A stretch of DNA of 64,000 bases from Sanyastnella coralliicola (GTDB taxonomy: Bacteria; Bacteroidota; Bacteroidia; Flavobacteriales_D; Sanyastnellaceae): positions 3,241,501 to 3,305,500 of the forward strand of contig NZ_CP132543.1 in assembly GCF_030845195.1 (NCBI RefSeq). The letters run 5' to 3'. The position numbers were made by a program, and so were the translations under genes. Of the stretch, positions 3,558 to 8,185 are shown piece by piece. Position 1 is the stretch's first letter; each line of letters starts with the position of its first letter. The notes under the pieces were generated by a model, which was not told where the DNA came from, made no database searches, and worked only from the letters and a program-made list of their open reading frames with translations.

Positions 3558-4883
3558 ATGTCTCGATCTATCCTCATAGCCGGGTGCCTGCTGCTCTCAT
3601 TTTTGGTTGTTGGCCAAACGGAGATTGTTTGGGAAGAATTTGAGTGCGCTACCAAAGTAGAGCACCTCCATTCCGTTTCTGAGAACCAACTCATCTCTGT
3701 ATTGGAATCAAATTGCGATGGCGACTATACTATCCGAATACAACGCATCGAATCGCAAGAACCCGTTGATTTCTGGGAAATTCCCGGGGCTCAGTTTAAC
3801 TGTGCATATTCAAATTCTCAGTCCGTCTTCGTTTTCTATCTACTAAACGGGGCATTCTATGTGCAGCAAATTGACAACGATATGGTAGCCAATGAAGCCA
3901 TACTGCTTCCTGTAAATAATTGCTTCTACATCAGGGAAGGGGGTGTATTTGAAGACTACATATTCTTCACTTATCGATCGTCAGCTATTAACCATACACT
4001 TACAGTCTGTGACTTCGGAGGCAACGAACTTGAAAGCACCATGCTTCAATTATTCGGCGCTCCAGTAGACACCCGATATTCTGACATCTTCATTGAGGCA
4101 GATGGTACCATTAGACTAGCCTTAGATTGTCATGCTCACGCCATCTTTCCTATCGACGATCTTAGTACAGCTAGTTGGATAGAAGCACCGGATTTTGTGG
4201 GAAACTGTGTACCTAAGGCAACGCTTAGAATTGATCCATATCAGAATCGATGGGTGGAGATTTATCCGTGGCCACTGCAAAACGATGGAGAAGGGTTATT
4301 CCTCTACTTTCGAGAAGGCGGATATGATGAACCTTATGGCTTTAACTACCTTATCGCCTACTCTGAATTCGGTGAGGATATTACCTTCCTCAGTGAAGAC
4401 ACCATTTTAGGACTCACCACCCTTACTTACGAAGACGGAACCCATAATGTCAACGTCTTTTTTGGCACTGATAATGGCAGCATTAATGGGAGCTACGTTC
4501 ATAATCGACCCGAATTCACGGAAATATTCATGTACGTGCATCACTTCGACGAAATGAACTACGCCTATGGAGCCCGACGAACAGAAATCGAAGATCCATA
4601 CCAACCCTGGATTCTAACTTTCACTGAAGAATCCCTAGCTATTTCCTCTCAAGAAAAACCCCATTCCGCGATAGCGATAAAAGAACAAATCGGAAACATC
4701 CAATTCCATCATCAAGAAGGAAAAAACATGCATCTCCAACTCTTTTCAAGTGATGGAAAACTGCTCAATCAAGATTATGGAAGCAACATTAACCTCGAAA
4801 CTAGCGCTTGGAACTCAAAAATTTTGATCGCTCGCATTGTTACTGATAATGAAGTAGTTACGCATCGTTTTTTCACCCAATAA
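3558..4883 (+). CDS. Secreted protein with T9SS-like C-terminal tail
   Basis: The frame is open from a TTG at 3507, but the ATG at 3558 gives a clean signal peptide (MSRSILIAGCLLLSFLVVGQ), so I start there: 441 residues. The body has no motif I recognise; it is rich in aromatic and acidic residues and in paired beta-like segments. The last 75 residues resemble a type A type IX secretion sorting domain: a LQLFSSDGKLL segment, a later strand, and a basic-aromatic end (HRFFTQ). It is probably exported and then passed through the outer membrane. Function unknown. It carries one copy of the 13-bp motif (4664). Confidence 0.75.
   Translation: MSRSILIAGCLLLSFLVVGQTEIVWEEFECATKVEHLHSVSENQLISVLESNCDGDYTIRIQRIESQEPVDFWEIPGAQFNCAYSNSQSVFVFYLLNGAFYVQQIDNDMVANEAILLPVNNCFYIREGGVFEDYIFFTYRSSAINHTLTVCDFGGNELESTMLQLFGAPVDTRYSDIFIEADGTIRLALDCHAHAIFPIDDLSTASWIEAPDFVGNCVPKATLRIDPYQNRWVEIYPWPLQNDGEGLFLYFREGGYDEPYGFNYLIAYSEFGEDITFLSEDTILGLTTLTYEDGTHNVNVFFGTDNGSINGSYVHNRPEFTEIFMYVHHFDEMNYAYGARRTEIEDPYQPWILTFTEESLAISSQEKPHSAIAIKEQIGNIQFHHQEGKNMHLQLFSSDGKLLNQDYGSNINLETSAWNSKILIARIVTDNEVVTHRFFTQ
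4664..4676 (-). repeat. 13-bp motif CGCTANCGCGGAA (N=T)
   Basis: Exact copy on the minus strand, inside the T9SS-tail protein gene. Confidence 0.85.
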
Positions 4884-4940
4884 AAACAGTCGACTCAGAT
4901 TTTTTTCGAGGATGCATGCAGAACTTTAAAGAAAGCGCCC

Positions 4941-4948
4941 TATCTTTG
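4941..4948 (+). promoter_or_regulatory. -7 promoter box TATCTTTG for the cysteine operon
   Basis: This is an exact match to the Bacteroidota -7 consensus TAnnTTTG. It ends 7 nt before the ATG of the first Cys leader peptide, so the transcript would start at or just before that codon. I see no clear TTTG -33 box at the usual distance. Confidence 0.65.
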
Positions 4949-4955
4949 TACCAGA

Positions 4956-5015
4956 ATGAACACGAATTTCACATATACATGTTGTTGTTTTACTAGCCTC
5001 CAAAAGGTTCGGTAG
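4956..5015 (+). CDS. Leader peptide 1 with three consecutive Cys codons
   Basis: A 19-codon ORF that begins 7 nt after the -7 box, so it may be translated from a leaderless mRNA. It contains TYTCCCFTS: three TGT codons at 4980-4988. The TAG stop (5013-5015) lies inside the segment that can pair with the following terminator. The next gene-sized product is cysteine synthase. I interpret this as a regulatory leader peptide on which ribosomes stall when Cys-tRNA is scarce. In another frame the same bases read as a very short Leu-containing ORF (ATG TTG TTG), which I consider less likely. Confidence 0.7.
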   Translation: MNTNFTYTCCCFTSLQKVR

Positions 5016-5054
5016 GGAACAGTGTATATCACAATATTTCAAGCCCCTCCGACC
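5006..5054 (+). promoter_or_regulatory. Candidate antiterminator of attenuator 1
   Basis: GGTTCGGTAGGG (5006-5017) can pair with CCCTCCGACC (5045-5054): AGGG with CCCT, CGG with CCG and GGT with ACC, leaving two single T bulges. The second partner is the 5' arm of terminator 1, so the two structures exclude each other. A ribosome stalled on the Cys codons leaves 5006-5017 free, while one at the stop codon covers it. Confidence 0.55.
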
Positions 5055-5073
5055 ACCGGAGGGGCTTTTTTTT
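5041..5073 (+). terminator. Attenuator terminator 1
   Basis: An 11-bp GC-rich stem (AAGCCCCTCCG, 5041-5051, with CGGAGGGGCTT, 5057-5067) and a five-base loop, followed by eight T. It lies 26 nt after leader peptide 1 and before any full gene, as expected for a transcription attenuator. Confidence 0.85.
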
Positions 5074-5099
5074 GGTTTATTGGTTTAATACTTGGTTAA

Positions 5100-5195
5100 A
5101 TGTCGGGAGTAAATAACATCGGAGTCCTTTCTAGCACAACATGCTGTTGTTGTTGCTCTGCTGAAAAGCGGAACGGAAGGGGTATGCTCGGATAA
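5100..5195 (+). CDS. Leader peptide 2 with five consecutive Cys codons
   Basis: A 31-codon ORF from ATG at 5100, lying between two intrinsic terminators. Residues 15-19 are five Cys codons in a row (TGC TGT TGT TGT TGC, 5142-5156), an extreme run for any bacterial peptide. The stop is at 5193-5195. I see no convincing promoter directly upstream, so it is probably reached by read-through of terminator 1. A second frame reads ATG followed by five Leu codons and TGC-TGA (5141-5164); the cysteine genes downstream favour the Cys frame. Confidence 0.7.
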   Translation: MSGVNNIGVLSSTTCCCCCSAEKRNGRGMLG

Positions 5196-5231
5196 CAACC
5201 GATCACAGCAGAAAAGATTCAGGGCCCTTCC
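5175..5231 (+). promoter_or_regulatory. Candidate antiterminator of attenuator 2
   Basis: GGAAGGG (5175-5181), inside the 3' part of leader 2, is the exact reverse complement of CCCTTCC (5225-5231) in the 5' arm of terminator 2. The pairings are mutually exclusive. The distance from the last Cys codon (5156) to 5175 is enough for a stalled ribosome to leave it exposed. Confidence 0.55.
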
Positions 5232-5253
5232 ACAAGAAGGGCCCTTTCTTTTT
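5221..5253 (+). terminator. Attenuator terminator 2
   Basis: A perfect 10-bp stem AGGGCCCTTC / GAAGGGCCCT with loop CACAA, followed by a T-rich run (TTCTTTTT). It sits 72 bp upstream of cysM and downstream of leader peptide 2. Confidence 0.85.
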
Positions 5254-5295
5254 GCCCTAAAAAAGCACTTAAAAACACAACACTATAAAACGCAT

Positions 5296-5305
5296 TGTTC
5301 GAACA
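5296..5305. promoter_or_regulatory. Short palindrome upstream of cysM
   Basis: TGTTCGAACA is a perfect 10-bp palindrome 20 bp before the cysM start. It could be an operator half-site pair, but there is no second copy nearby to support this. Confidence 0.2.
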
Positions 5306-5324
5306 GAACGCAATCACTTGACCC

Positions 5325-6263
5325 ATGCACACAATGATACCTACATCTAGATCGGTGGAACGTTTCCACGAATTGCAACACTACGTTGGGAATACGCCGC
5401 TCTATCCAATCACCAAGCTTAGTCCGAATCCAAAAGTGAAGATCTACGCTAAGCTCGAATGGCAACAAATGGGAGGAAGCGTGAAGGCGCGTCCGGCATA
5501 TAACATTATGAAAGAGGCCATCGAATCAGGAAAACTCAACGAAGGAAAACACCTGCTGGATGCTACAAGTGGCAACACAGGAATCGCTTATGCTGTATTT
5601 GCTTCGGTTGCCGGAATCCCGCTTACACTTGCTGTTCCTGGTAATGTCACCAAAGAGCGCAAGAATATTCTCCAGGCACTCGGTGTGAACCTCATTTTCA
5701 CTTCTCCATTTGAATCTACTGATGGTTCTCAACGAGAAGCGTTGGCTCTCGCTAGCGCGGAACCGGACAAGTACTTCTATGCAGATCAATACAACAACGA
5801 TAATAACTGGAAAGCCCATTACAATTCAACGGCGGATGAGATCATTCGCCAAACCGGAGGTCAAATAACACATTTTGTTGCCGGACTAGGAACCACGGGA
5901 ACATTCACTGGTACTTCGCGCAAACTGAAGGAATACGATCCATCAATTCAAGTTATCGGATTGCAGCCAGAAACCGCCCTGCACGGTTTGGAAGGCTGGA
6001 AACACCTGGAGACGGCGAAGGTACCGGGCATTTATGACGATCAACTCGCAGACGACATCCAAGGTGTGGACACGCTAGGTGCCTACGAAGTCTTGAAAGA
6101 TGCTGCTCGTTATGAAAGTCTGTTCCTCTCTCCTAGTTCGGCAGCGAACCTCCTTGGCGCCATTCTCTTGGCTGAGAAGATTGAGGAAGGCACCATCGTC
6201 ACTGTCTTTCCAGATGATGCGACAAAGTATTCAGAGGTCGTAGATCCAATCCTGAAATCATGA
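5325..6263 (+). CDS. cysM: Cysteine synthase, CysM type (probably CysO-thiocarboxylate dependent)
   Basis: A 312-residue fold-type II PLP enzyme. The PLP lysine is K54 in GGSVKARPAYN, the phosphate loop is GLGTTGTFTG, the substrate loop is TSGNTGIAYA and the PLP-N1 serine is in SPSSAANL. The family joins a sulfur donor to activated serine. The neighbours (JAMM protease, Gly-Gly carrier, MoeB-rhodanese) match the mycobacterial CysM/CysO set, which uses O-phosphoserine and a protein thiocarboxylate. By my hand alignment K226 falls where the mycobacterial enzyme has its phosphate-binding Arg, a conservative change. It starts at ATG 5325; ATG 5334 is also possible. The stop overlaps the next gene by 4 bp. 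Confidence 0.93.
   Translation: MHTMIPTSRSVERFHELQHYVGNTPLYPITKLSPNPKVKIYAKLEWQQMGGSVKARPAYNIMKEAIESGKLNEGKHLLDATSGNTGIAYAVFASVAGIPLTLAVPGNVTKERKNILQALGVNLIFTSPFESTDGSQREALALASAEPDKYFYADQYNNDNNWKAHYNSTADEIIRQTGGQITHFVAGLGTTGTFTGTSRKLKEYDPSIQVIGLQPETALHGLEGWKHLETAKVPGIYDDQLADDIQGVDTLGAYEVLKDAARYESLFLSPSSAANLLGAILLAEKIEEGTIVTVFPDDATKYSEVVDPILKS
5750..5762 (+). repeat. 13-bp motif CGCTANCGCGGAA (N=G)
   Basis: Exact plus-strand copy inside cysM, encoding part of LASAE. Confidence 0.85.
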
Positions 6264-6715
6264 AGAAGCTCGAACTCACTACTCAAGCTGAAGATCTCAT
6301 GAAGATTCACTCCCTACAAGGTTTCCCAAATGAGATCTGTGGATTCTTCTATGGGAAAACGGTGGAAGGTGTGAAGCATGTAACGGCGATCAAACCTGTG
6401 GAGAACGCGAAAGAAGGTGATCAACGTCGACGATTTGCGATTGACCCTTTAGACTACATGAAGGCTGAACAATTCGCTATCGCGGAAGAGCTTGAATTCC
6501 TCGGGATTTACCACACCCATCCATTGCATCCAGCCATTCCTTCGGAACACGACTTGAAGCAAGCATTACCATCCTTCAGCTACATCATTCTTAGTGTCCA
6601 ACCAGAAGCAGTAGTAGACATCACCTCATGGACCTTGAACGATGATCGAGCATTCGAACAAGAAGAAATCATATCCAATAGAAACGTAAATACTTCGGCC
6701 AGTAAGGCCTCTTAA
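6260..6715 (+). CDS. mec: JAMM/MPN metalloprotease, Mec-like
   Basis: A 151-residue single-domain M67 peptidase. The zinc site is complete: E25 (NEICGFFYG), H85 and H87 (YHTHP), S95 and D98 (PSEHD), the E...HxH...S..D pattern of JAMM enzymes. In mycobacteria Mec releases cysteine from the CysO-Cys adduct. In quinolobactin synthesis a related protease trims the carrier C-terminus to expose Gly-Gly. Here the carrier next door has two residues after Gly-Gly, so this enzyme could do either job or both (inference). It overlaps cysM by ATGA, and the carrier gene follows after 10 bp. Confidence 0.88.
   Translation: MKKLELTTQAEDLMKIHSLQGFPNEICGFFYGKTVEGVKHVTAIKPVENAKEGDQRRRFAIDPLDYMKAEQFAIAEELEFLGIYHTHPLHPAIPSEHDLKQALPSFSYIILSVQPEAVVDITSWTLNDDRAFEQEEIISNRNVNTSASKAS
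6475..6487 (+). repeat. 13-bp motif CGCTANCGCGGAA (N=T)
   Basis: Exact plus-strand copy inside the JAMM protease gene. Confidence 0.85.
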
Positions 6716-6725
6716 AACTACAATC

Positions 6726-7004
6726 ATGGCACGACTCATTATCCCAACCCCATTGCGCAAGTTTACCGCCGACCAGGCGGAATTTGAAAGCACGGGAAAC
6801 AACGTAAAAGAAGTGATCAACCAACTGATTGATGAATACAACGGACTGAAGCAACACCTCCTCGACGAGCGTGGAGATATTCGTTCATTCGTACGCATCT
6901 ATGTTGGTGATGAAGATATTCAAGCGCTCAATCGAGAACACACGACTGTTGAAGCAAATTCGGTAGTTTCGATTATTCCTGCGATAGCGGGTGGAAGCCA
7001 CTAA
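6726..7004 (+). CDS. cysO: CysO-like small sulfur-carrier protein (MoaD/ThiS family)
   Basis: A 92-residue ubiquitin-like protein. The start (MARLIIPTPLRKFTADQ) and the C-terminal half (NSVVSIIPAIAGG) match the CysO branch of MoaD/ThiS carriers. In this family the C-terminal glycine is adenylated and converted to a thiocarboxylate that donates sulfur to CysM. Unusually the protein does not end at Gly89-Gly90 but continues with Ser91-His92, which would block adenylation until removed. The gene lies between its likely processing enzyme (JAMM protease) and its likely activating enzyme (MoeB-rhodanese), 11 bp before the latter. Confidence 0.9.
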   Translation: MARLIIPTPLRKFTADQAEFESTGNNVKEVINQLIDEYNGLKQHLLDERGDIRSFVRIYVGDEDIQALNREHTTVEANSVVSIIPAIAGGSH

Positions 7005-7015
7005 AAAGCACAATC

Positions 7016-8185
7016 ATGGCAGAAGAAGTGACATTCTCGAAAGAAGAGCTCGAACGTTACAGCCGACATTTGATCATCCCTCAGTTCAACATTGAAGGTC
7101 AACGTAAACTGAAGGAATCAAGGGTTCTGATCGTCGGTTCAGGCGGATTAGGTAGTCCGCTACTCCTCTACCTCGCGGCAGCAGGAGTGGGAACACTGGG
7201 TATCGTTGACTTTGACGTCGTCGATGAATCCAACCTTCAACGTCAAGTGCTTTTTGGAATCGATGATGTAGGTACCCCCAAAGTGGAGGCGGCAGCGAAA
7301 CGCATTCGCGCGCTGAATCCACACATTACAGTCAAGACCTACAACACGCAGCTGACCTCAGCGAACGCACTTGACATTATCAAAGACTACGATGTAGTGG
7401 CAGACGGAACCGATAATTTCCCAACCCGCTACCTGGTCAACGATGCTTGTGTTCTTTTAGATAAGGTAAACGTGTACGCTTCGATCTACCGCTTTGAAGG
7501 ACAAGTCAGCGTATTCAACTACCTGGATGAGGAGGGAAACCGAGGACCGAATTACCGGGACCTCTTCCCTACACCACCTCCTCCAGGATTGGTGCCAAGC
7601 TGTGCCGAAGGAGGCGTCATTGGCGTACTCCCAGGTATCATGGGCAGCCTTCAAGCAAATGAAGTCATCAAGGTCATCTCAGGCGTAGGCGACACCCTCA
7701 ACGGAAGACTCTTCCTTATGGATGCAGCCACCTTTGAGACGAGAACATTGAAGGTATACCGCGATCCCAAAAACCCACTCAACGGCGAAAACCCAACCCA
7801 AACAGAACTCATCGACTACGAGCAATTCTGTGGCATTGGTACAACCGAACGAGTAGAAAAAGCAGAAGTGAAAGAGGTAAGCGTCTCTGACCTTCAGCGC
7901 ATGCGTGAAAGTGGCGTACCTCATCAATTGATCGATGTACGTGAGCCCTACGAATACGCCATCGTGAATATCGACGGTGAATTGGCTCCATTGAAATCAG
8001 TGGGTGAATTTGCCAATCGCATTGATCGCAACAAGAAAGTGATTGTCCACTGTAGAAGTGGCGTCAGAAGCGCTAAAGCAATAAAGCAGTTAGAAACAGA
8101 TTTCGGTTTCGAGAATCTATACAATCTAAAGGGCGGGATTCTGGCCTGGGTAGATGAGGTAGACGCGAGTCTGCCTAAGTATTGA
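7016..8185 (+). CDS. moeZ: MoeZ-like sulfur-carrier adenylyltransferase/sulfurtransferase
   Basis: A 389-residue fusion of an E1-like domain and a rhodanese domain. The N-terminal part has the ATP loop GSGGLGSP (41-48), D130 in VADGTDNF, and C196 in PSCAEGG. The C-terminal rhodanese (from about 288) has active-site C346 in HCRSGVRS. I see no pair of CxxC zinc motifs. The family adenylates the carrier's Gly-Gly end and then loads sulfur from the rhodanese persulfide. It is the last gene of the cysteine operon and could also serve MoaD, but no molybdopterin genes are visible here. Confidence 0.93.
   Translation: MAEEVTFSKEELERYSRHLIIPQFNIEGQRKLKESRVLIVGSGGLGSPLLLYLAAAGVGTLGIVDFDVVDESNLQRQVLFGIDDVGTPKVEAAAKRIRALNPHITVKTYNTQLTSANALDIIKDYDVVADGTDNFPTRYLVNDACVLLDKVNVYASIYRFEGQVSVFNYLDEEGNRGPNYRDLFPTPPPPGLVPSCAEGGVIGVLPGIMGSLQANEVIKVISGVGDTLNGRLFLMDAATFETRTLKVYRDPKNPLNGENPTQTELIDYEQFCGIGTTERVEKAEVKEVSVSDLQRMRESGVPHQLIDVREPYEYAIVNIDGELAPLKSVGEFANRIDRNKKVIVHCRSGVRSAKAIKQLETDFGFENLYNLKGGILAWVDEVDASLPKY

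Follow-up and report, generated by a model that had tools for sequence, protein, structure and literature searches.

Two probable cysteine attenuators in series upstream of the cysM operon of Sanyastnella coralliicola, with counterparts in several orders of Bacteroidota

Why should a cysteine operon be preceded by two short open reading frames (ORFs) that both contain consecutive Cys codons and both have an intrinsic terminator behind them? Such an arrangement is found in the window analysed here, a 64,000-nucleotide stretch of the 4.10-Mb single-contig genome of Sanyastnella coralliicola, where the gap between the end of the upstream gene at 4883 and the start of a CysM-like gene at 5325 holds both ORFs. 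Attenuation through leader peptides belongs to textbook knowledge, and a preliminary description of this DNA had proposed ribosome-mediated attenuation by cysteine, with the geometry known from trp and his. This proposal is supported by the conservation of the Cys runs, covarying 2:3 pairings, conserved 1:2 pairings and the content of the operon, and it also fits the absence of such units elsewhere in the loci that were fetched. In our judgement, the two units are very probably trp-type transcription attenuators in series, which would read charged tRNA-Cys and control the cysM-JAB-thiS-moeZ operon.

All features of the locus lie on the + strand. Leader peptide ORF 1 (4956..5015) encodes MNTNFTYTCCCFTSLQKVR with three Cys codons at 4980-4988, and Cys-run leaders are present at the equivalent site in relatives; it is followed by an intrinsic terminator (5041..5073) made of a stem at 5041-5067 and a T run. 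Leader peptide ORF 2 (5100..5195) encodes MSGVNNIGVLSSTTCCCCCSAEKRNGRGMLG with five Cys codons at 5142-5156, and the intrinsic terminator behind it (5221..5253), with a stem at 5221-5245 and a T-rich tail, ends about 70 nt upstream of the cysM start. Both leaders, their Cys runs of three and five, both terminators and the alternative pairings of the terminator 5' arms had been listed in the preliminary description, and all of them were recovered. Antiterminator segment 2 of unit 1 (5005..5018) overlaps the stop codon of ORF 1 and forms a bulged 2:3 pairing, GGTTCGGTAGGG (5006-5017) with CCCCTCCGACC (5044-5054), the duplex of the segment with the terminator 5' arm reaching -16.0 kcal/mol (z -3.8 against shuffles). 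Segment 2 of unit 2 (5174..5184) contains GGAAGGG (5175-5181), the exact complement of CCCTTCC (5225-5231); its duplex with its own terminator arm amounts to -14.7 kcal/mol, a value that taken alone has z -1.3 and p 0.11 against shuffles, and in the window this segment prefers the arm of unit 1 (-17.7) over its own.

Two kinds of element can be added to that earlier picture, namely the protective 1:2 hairpins of both units and a promoter box, TATCTTTG. The hairpin of unit 1 (4973..5029) has its arms at 4973-4999 and 5005-5029, encloses the Cys codons within its first arm, and appears in the minimum free energy fold of 4953-5080 (z -5.1). In unit 2, segment 1 is CCUUUCU (5126..5132), which in the absence of a covering ribosome would have GGAAGGG at 5175-5181 as its partner, as in the minimum free energy fold of 5100-5255 (z -5.0). 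No Rfam family matched the window at its gathering score. A lax search of 4880-5330 returned 24 sub-threshold matches, including rnk_leader (30.3 bits, cut-off 50) and Phe_leader (27.9 bits, cut-off 55), and these were set aside as chance, except for a weak resemblance to Phe_leader.

The genes downstream bear directly on what the leaders might control. The first one (5325..6263, +) encodes a CysM-like, PLP-dependent cysteine synthase with a PALP domain (PF00291), whose best NCBIfam match, TIGR01138 cysM, scores 298 bits, below the cut-off of 394. It is followed by a Mec-like JAB-domain metalloprotease (6260..6715, +; PF14464, Prok-JAB), a ThiS/CysO-like sulfur carrier with the C-terminus GGSH (6726..7004, +; PF02597, from the ORF list) and a MoeB/MoeZ-like adenylyltransferase with a rhodanese domain (7016..8185, +; PF00899 and PF00581). 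Presumably, cysM, JAB, thiS and moeZ together make up the genes for cysteine synthesis by the protein-thiocarboxylate (CysO-CysM-Mec) route, and the controlled pathway is apparently CysO-like cysteine synthesis. Homologues of JAB, ThiS and MoeZ were each found in 76 of the 77 loci with at least 2700 nt from the cysM start, presence being counted irrespective of order. Among 87 ThiS-like matches, the C-terminal tail was GG plus two residues in 51, bare GG in 5, and GG with one or three extra residues in 10, while 21 had no GG near the end; this tail may be a substrate for trimming by the JAB protease encoded in the operon. A CysM that is 100% identical is present in the metagenome-assembled genome (MAG) 'Flavobacteriales bacterium isolate ALOHA_ZT_13', the nearest named relative among the matches listed. 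In the close relatives L022, L023, L024, L005 and L025, the double attenuator is separated from cysM by a peroxiredoxin-like gene (motif PVCTTE or PVCITE); no such gene lies between the two in the window.

How the leader RNA would begin can be judged from the promoter box. The -7 box TATCTTTG (4941..4948, +) agrees with TAnnTTTG, the consensus of Bacteroidota sigma-A, and lies 7 nt upstream of the first ATG. As the excerpt of PMC9723704 places the Bacteroidota box at -12 to -5, the start is expected at about 4953, with 3 nt left to the ATG of ORF 1, and the predicted transcript of the window is nearly leaderless at leader 1. No clear -33 element was found upstream of the box, and a sigma-70 promoter scan gave nothing near the leader start. 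Among 28 loci with two Cys leaders, an exact box 2-14 nt before the ATG was present at nine first leaders and at none of the second leaders, compared with 31 of 2100 shuffles; a tolerance of one mismatch at the same distance raised this to 19 first and 5 second leaders (351 of 2100 shuffles). A separate promoter for unit 2 was considered and rejected, since none of the 28 second leaders has an exact box 2-14 nt before it and mismatched boxes occur there near the shuffled rate. Leaders of single units carry an exact box at 2-14 nt in 4 of 49 cases and at 15-27 nt in 14 of 49; as the box of single leaders is mostly farther off, the nearly leaderless start seems to be mainly a trait of the first leaders of doubles. 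These distributions support one promoter from which both units would be transcribed in succession on a single RNA.

The comparison with relatives was based on 101 cysM loci, of which 21 came from the first search of relatives (21 of 60 genomes matched) and the others were the best 80 of 579 candidates, a choice that biases the sample toward close homologues. Removal of duplicates left 93 loci, and 89 remained after four with less than 200 nt upstream had been dropped. When a strict unit was defined by at least three consecutive TGY codons in an ORF of at most 45 codons with a terminator within 150 nt, one unit was found in 56 of the 89 loci and two in 17. The preliminary description had asked that relatives be compared for conserved Cys runs, and at least one unit was present in 73 of 89 cysM loci, against none in the 89 reverse strands and none in 890 dinucleotide shuffles of the homologous regions. 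The other 16 loci had no strict unit, and seven of these possess a Cys-run leader whose terminator was undetected. With an ATG start required and the terminator left aside, one Cys-run leader was found in 49 loci, two in 28 and none in 12; no locus among the 89 had more than two units. Cultured bacteria with one unit include Flexithrix dorotheae DSM 6795 and Reichenbachiella agariperforans DSM 26134; the 23 doubles that bear a name are all MAGs. Within the 12, a Cys run is present in L018, L052, L071 and L081, in an ORF that fails the ATG or length rule; cysM lies behind tetrapyrrole-methylase-like genes, by our own reading of the ORFs, in L067, L095 and L100; and L019 and L020 are distant homologues. 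All 87 ATG-started units stand upstream of cysM and on the cysM strand, with both strands counted over 93 loci and 1.12 Mb. A family-wide search found a CysM homologue in 32 of 114 genomes, and the 13 further loci that it yielded (L139-L151) lie outside all counts given here. In the Balneolales (Aliifodinibius) loci L097, L098 and L071, poly-Cys runs precede cysM in Balneolota too, where a unit-forming terminator was not detected. In L055 (Splendidivirga corallicola), a single Cys leader precedes a pair of successive terminator hairpins, at -121 to -52 before the start of the cysM match.

Over 90 strict units, the own 2:3 pairing, formed by the stretch from Cys run to terminator with the 5' arm of that terminator, averaged -14.8 kcal/mol, against -10.4 kcal/mol when segments were swapped between units (none of 5000 permutations), and the own partner fell within the best tenth in 40 of them. 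The difference persisted in 26 mutually dissimilar representatives (-15.3 against -9.6, none of 5000), the own partner being in the best tenth in 17. Against shuffles of the own segment, p was below 0.05 in 61 of the 90 units, with a median z of -2.6. The two sides of the pairing change together: CCTTTCC terminators face GGAAAGG, those with CTCCACC face GGTGGAG, and in L085 the CATTCC of unit 1 faces GGAATG. The compensatory changes that the preliminary description had suggested looking for in relatives do occur. The own 1:2 pairing, in which the beginning of the leader and its Cys run face the region behind them, was likewise stronger than permuted ones (-19.1 against -15.2, none of 5000), and this also holds without the Cys codons. 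In plain folds, segment 2 paired upstream in 71 of 90 units and still in 52 of 90 after segment 1 had been shuffled, so that folding gives weaker evidence for the 1:2 hairpin than the permutations do. The own terminator arm was preferred in 15 of 17 first units and 14 of 17 second units of the strict doubles.

The distances also suit a ribosome-controlled switch. Segment 2 begins a median 11.5 nt past the last Cys codon, and in 78 of 90 units it is overlapped by a footprint of -17 to +14, as assumed for a ribosome on the stop codon; by the same simple footprint rule, a ribosome on the first Cys codon leaves segment 2 clear in 89 of 90 units and one on the last in 50 of 90. In a folding model limited to the RNA from the front edge of the ribosome as far as the terminator loop, segment 2 took at least 30% of the terminator arm plus loop in 88 of 90 units for the first Cys codon and in 89 for the last, compared with 8 for the stop codon and 52 with no ribosome. 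When the 3' arm was included, the terminator won at equilibrium in every ribosome state (mean stem probability 0.89-0.95), and the model consequently needs a kinetic order of folding, that is, capture.

Over the whole set, every comparative test speaks for function, with the weak points of unit 2 of the window noted above, and together these features suggest how the locus may work. Transcription would start at about 4953, and leader 1 would be translated from a nearly leaderless mRNA. With Cys-tRNA plentiful, the ribosome would reach the leader stop codon and mask segment 2 (5005-5018 in unit 1 or 5174-5184 in unit 2), and the terminator would form. With Cys-tRNA scarce, the ribosome is predicted to halt on the Cys codons, in or beside segment 1, and thereby to break the 1:2 hairpin; the freed segment 2 could then capture the 5' arm of the terminator before the 3' arm is made, and RNA polymerase would read through. 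The polymerase would face the same test at unit 2, an AND-like logic in which expression of the operon would require readthrough at both terminators.

Several other readings of the same features have to be weighed, and the most direct one concerns the frame. The preliminary description had cautioned that a Leu-rich frame overlaps the Cys codons, and ATG TTG TTG TTT TAC TAG is indeed present in unit 1; a leucine attenuator, in which this TTG/CTG reading is the translated one, could moreover draw on an ATG-started Leu frame in 26 of the 91 runs of at least four TGY codons upstream of cysM. The relatives give this caveat no support: an ATG-started ORF of at most 45 codons is available in the Cys frame in 87 of these 91 runs and in the third frame in 6, the Leu reading would use TTG or CTG throughout while such codons make up 46% of 2536 Leu codons in cysM genes, and no leucine genes were seen in the operon, so that we consider a leucine attenuator extremely improbable. 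Sensing might instead lie in the peptide, with poly-Cys nascent chains halted directly by Zn, Cu or oxidised thiols. The length of the runs (up to eight Cys) would agree with metal or redox sensing, as would the peroxiredoxin gene that lies upstream of cysM in 9 of 93 loci and, in close relatives, between attenuator and cysM. Yet the Cys run is positioned as a codon-reading attenuator requires, the operon makes cysteine, the residues flanking the runs vary and runs of just three Cys also exist, and we would give direct sensing little credence. Much the same small weight goes to the idea that control is exerted on translation, as by the poly-Cys leaders of mycobacteria, with the hairpins serving as plain terminators or as sites of processing; the excerpt of PMC13236596 cites those leaders as acting at the level of translation, and in the part of PMC1262725 available to us they are without conserved terminators. 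Here, on the other hand, both units combine a GC-rich stem and a T tract with an antiterminator that covaries, and the second terminator stands close before cysM.

Attenuation by Cys-tRNA thus being the preferred reading, it might still be that just one unit is functional, the other being a relic or a by-product of duplication whose sole effect is to reduce background transcription. Loci with a single strict unit do outnumber doubles (56 against 17), and in L032 and L061, both scored as single, the Cys run of the first leader is broken up or cut short (CCWC and CC) with its terminator kept, which looks like decay of unit 1 and may possibly be so. Nevertheless, both units of the window retain leader, Cys run, antiterminator and terminator, and doubles were found in separate tree groups; they occur in the family of the window, in Saprospiraceae and in Chitinophagaceae. 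The two leaders also differ: in the 17 strict doubles, the stop codon ends a median of 18 nt past the Cys run in first leaders and 36 nt past it in second ones (p 0.0004), which suggests a distinct, maintained role. On balance, we regard a vestigial unit as unlikely, and two working attenuators remain the reading that we follow below.

On the CysM tree of 89 rows, the labels double and single are strongly clustered, with 13 changes compared with a shuffled mean of 24 (none of 500 as low), at least 10 of the 13 being forced by well-supported branches; the 13 changes are not taken as a number of gains, as two 'single' loci, L032 and L061, keep a decayed first leader, whereby doubles are undercounted and changes overcounted. 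Second leaders are not clearly different from strict-single ones in the distance from Cys run to stop (36 against 39 nt, p 0.11), the strict singles here including some loci with a second Cys leader whose terminator escaped detection, and of the two units the one nearer the operon may have arisen first. Within 28 doubles, the second Cys run exceeds the first in length in 18, falls short of it in 4 and matches it in 6 (sign test 0.004, relatedness disregarded). It is plausible that serial units would make a steeper switch or set two thresholds, a view to which the scatter of doubles over separate tree groups and the longer second runs lend indirect support. A fuller proposal, that the homotypic double cysteine attenuator before the cysM operon is a recurrent Bacteroidota design, in which a nearly leaderless unit 1 with a shorter run and an internal unit 2 with a longer run would multiply two thresholds into a steep switch, seems to us evenly poised between right and wrong.

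The units share much with the trp, his and phe attenuators, including a short leader ORF with repeated cognate codons, the 1:2, 2:3 and 3:4 pairings, an intrinsic terminator and a biosynthetic operon; they are unlike them in the cysteine signal, the Bacteroidota host and promoter, the nearly leaderless first leader and the presence of two full units. A leader RNA with two ORFs that both act as attenuators is also described for mgtCBR of Salmonella in the excerpt of PMC3641672, where, however, the signals are different (ATP and proline) and the stem-loops do not resemble intrinsic terminators; both leaders here carry Cys runs, each has an intrinsic terminator, and the different signals that mark the mgtCBR kind are not found. 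According to the available part of PMC8632094, uORFC-8-2 before cysS in Rhodobacterales has leader-ORF Cys codons, a U-tract terminator and predicted attenuation in common with the present units, but it has two Cys codons and a single unit, precedes cysS and belongs to Alphaproteobacteria. The mycobacterial poly-Cys leader ORFs (Canestrari 2020; PMC1262725) resemble them in their Cys-codon runs before cys genes and are leaderless by a cited title, yet as far as the excerpts go they are cited as translation attenuation and lack a conserved terminator, PMC1262725 giving Cys leaders without terminators in Actinobacteria. Tandem T-boxes and riboswitches for one ligand, as presented in the accessible portion of PMC12452182, are alike in placing two full regulators of the same signal in series and unlike in that the RNA binds the ligand or tRNA directly, with no leader peptide. 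The same portion expects a digital, pseudo-cooperative response from tandem T-boxes and c-di-GMP riboswitches, and by analogy this logic would extend to the double Cys attenuator.

In the part of PMC2965389 (2010) consulted, no leader-peptide system is said to be known as shown outside Proteobacteria and Actinobacteria, ermC apart, to which that study adds a Firmicutes case, and a second tandem terminator is mentioned for some rimP leaders. Clues to leader-peptide attenuation in Flavobacterium and Bacteroides appear in the excerpts of PMC9723704 (2021) and PMC7366714. An earlier cysteine attenuator in Bacteroidota, or a double for the same amino acid, was not found among the open-licence papers listed, and a report or table entry may exist. 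The class of mechanism is known, and what is new, as far as searched, is a Cys attenuator in several Bacteroidota orders and its doubling. The comparative support for a cysteine attenuator across several orders of the phylum is strong, with two Cys leaders in 28 of 89 sampled loci, 17 of them strict doubles. Moreover, natural singles and doubles before the same operon allow a direct test of the effect of serial attenuators on threshold and steepness.

The genome of the window was also searched for further units, and it has 24 distinct sites with at least four TGY codons in a row (39 overlapping matches), a threshold above the run of three in ORF 1. A terminator within 150 nt follows just two of the 24, the window site and one unrelated 33-aa Cys-rich ORF, and no further poly-Cys attenuator was found among these sites. 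The 33-aa ORF, MKSNDPCCGNDSGCCTCCCCQCSPNQQGGNCQC, lies at L138:1442-1540 of the reverse complement (2005348-2008348 of the same genome), is followed by the terminator and starts, by our own reading of the sequence, about 55 nt after a sigma-factor-like gene. As well, the CysM of two records, L066 (NZGD01000088.1, Rhodopirellula sp.) and L024 (CAMCHP010000022.1, Chryseobacterium gleum), falls among uncultured Flavobacteriales in the tree, and these records are probably mislabelled or contaminated MAGs.
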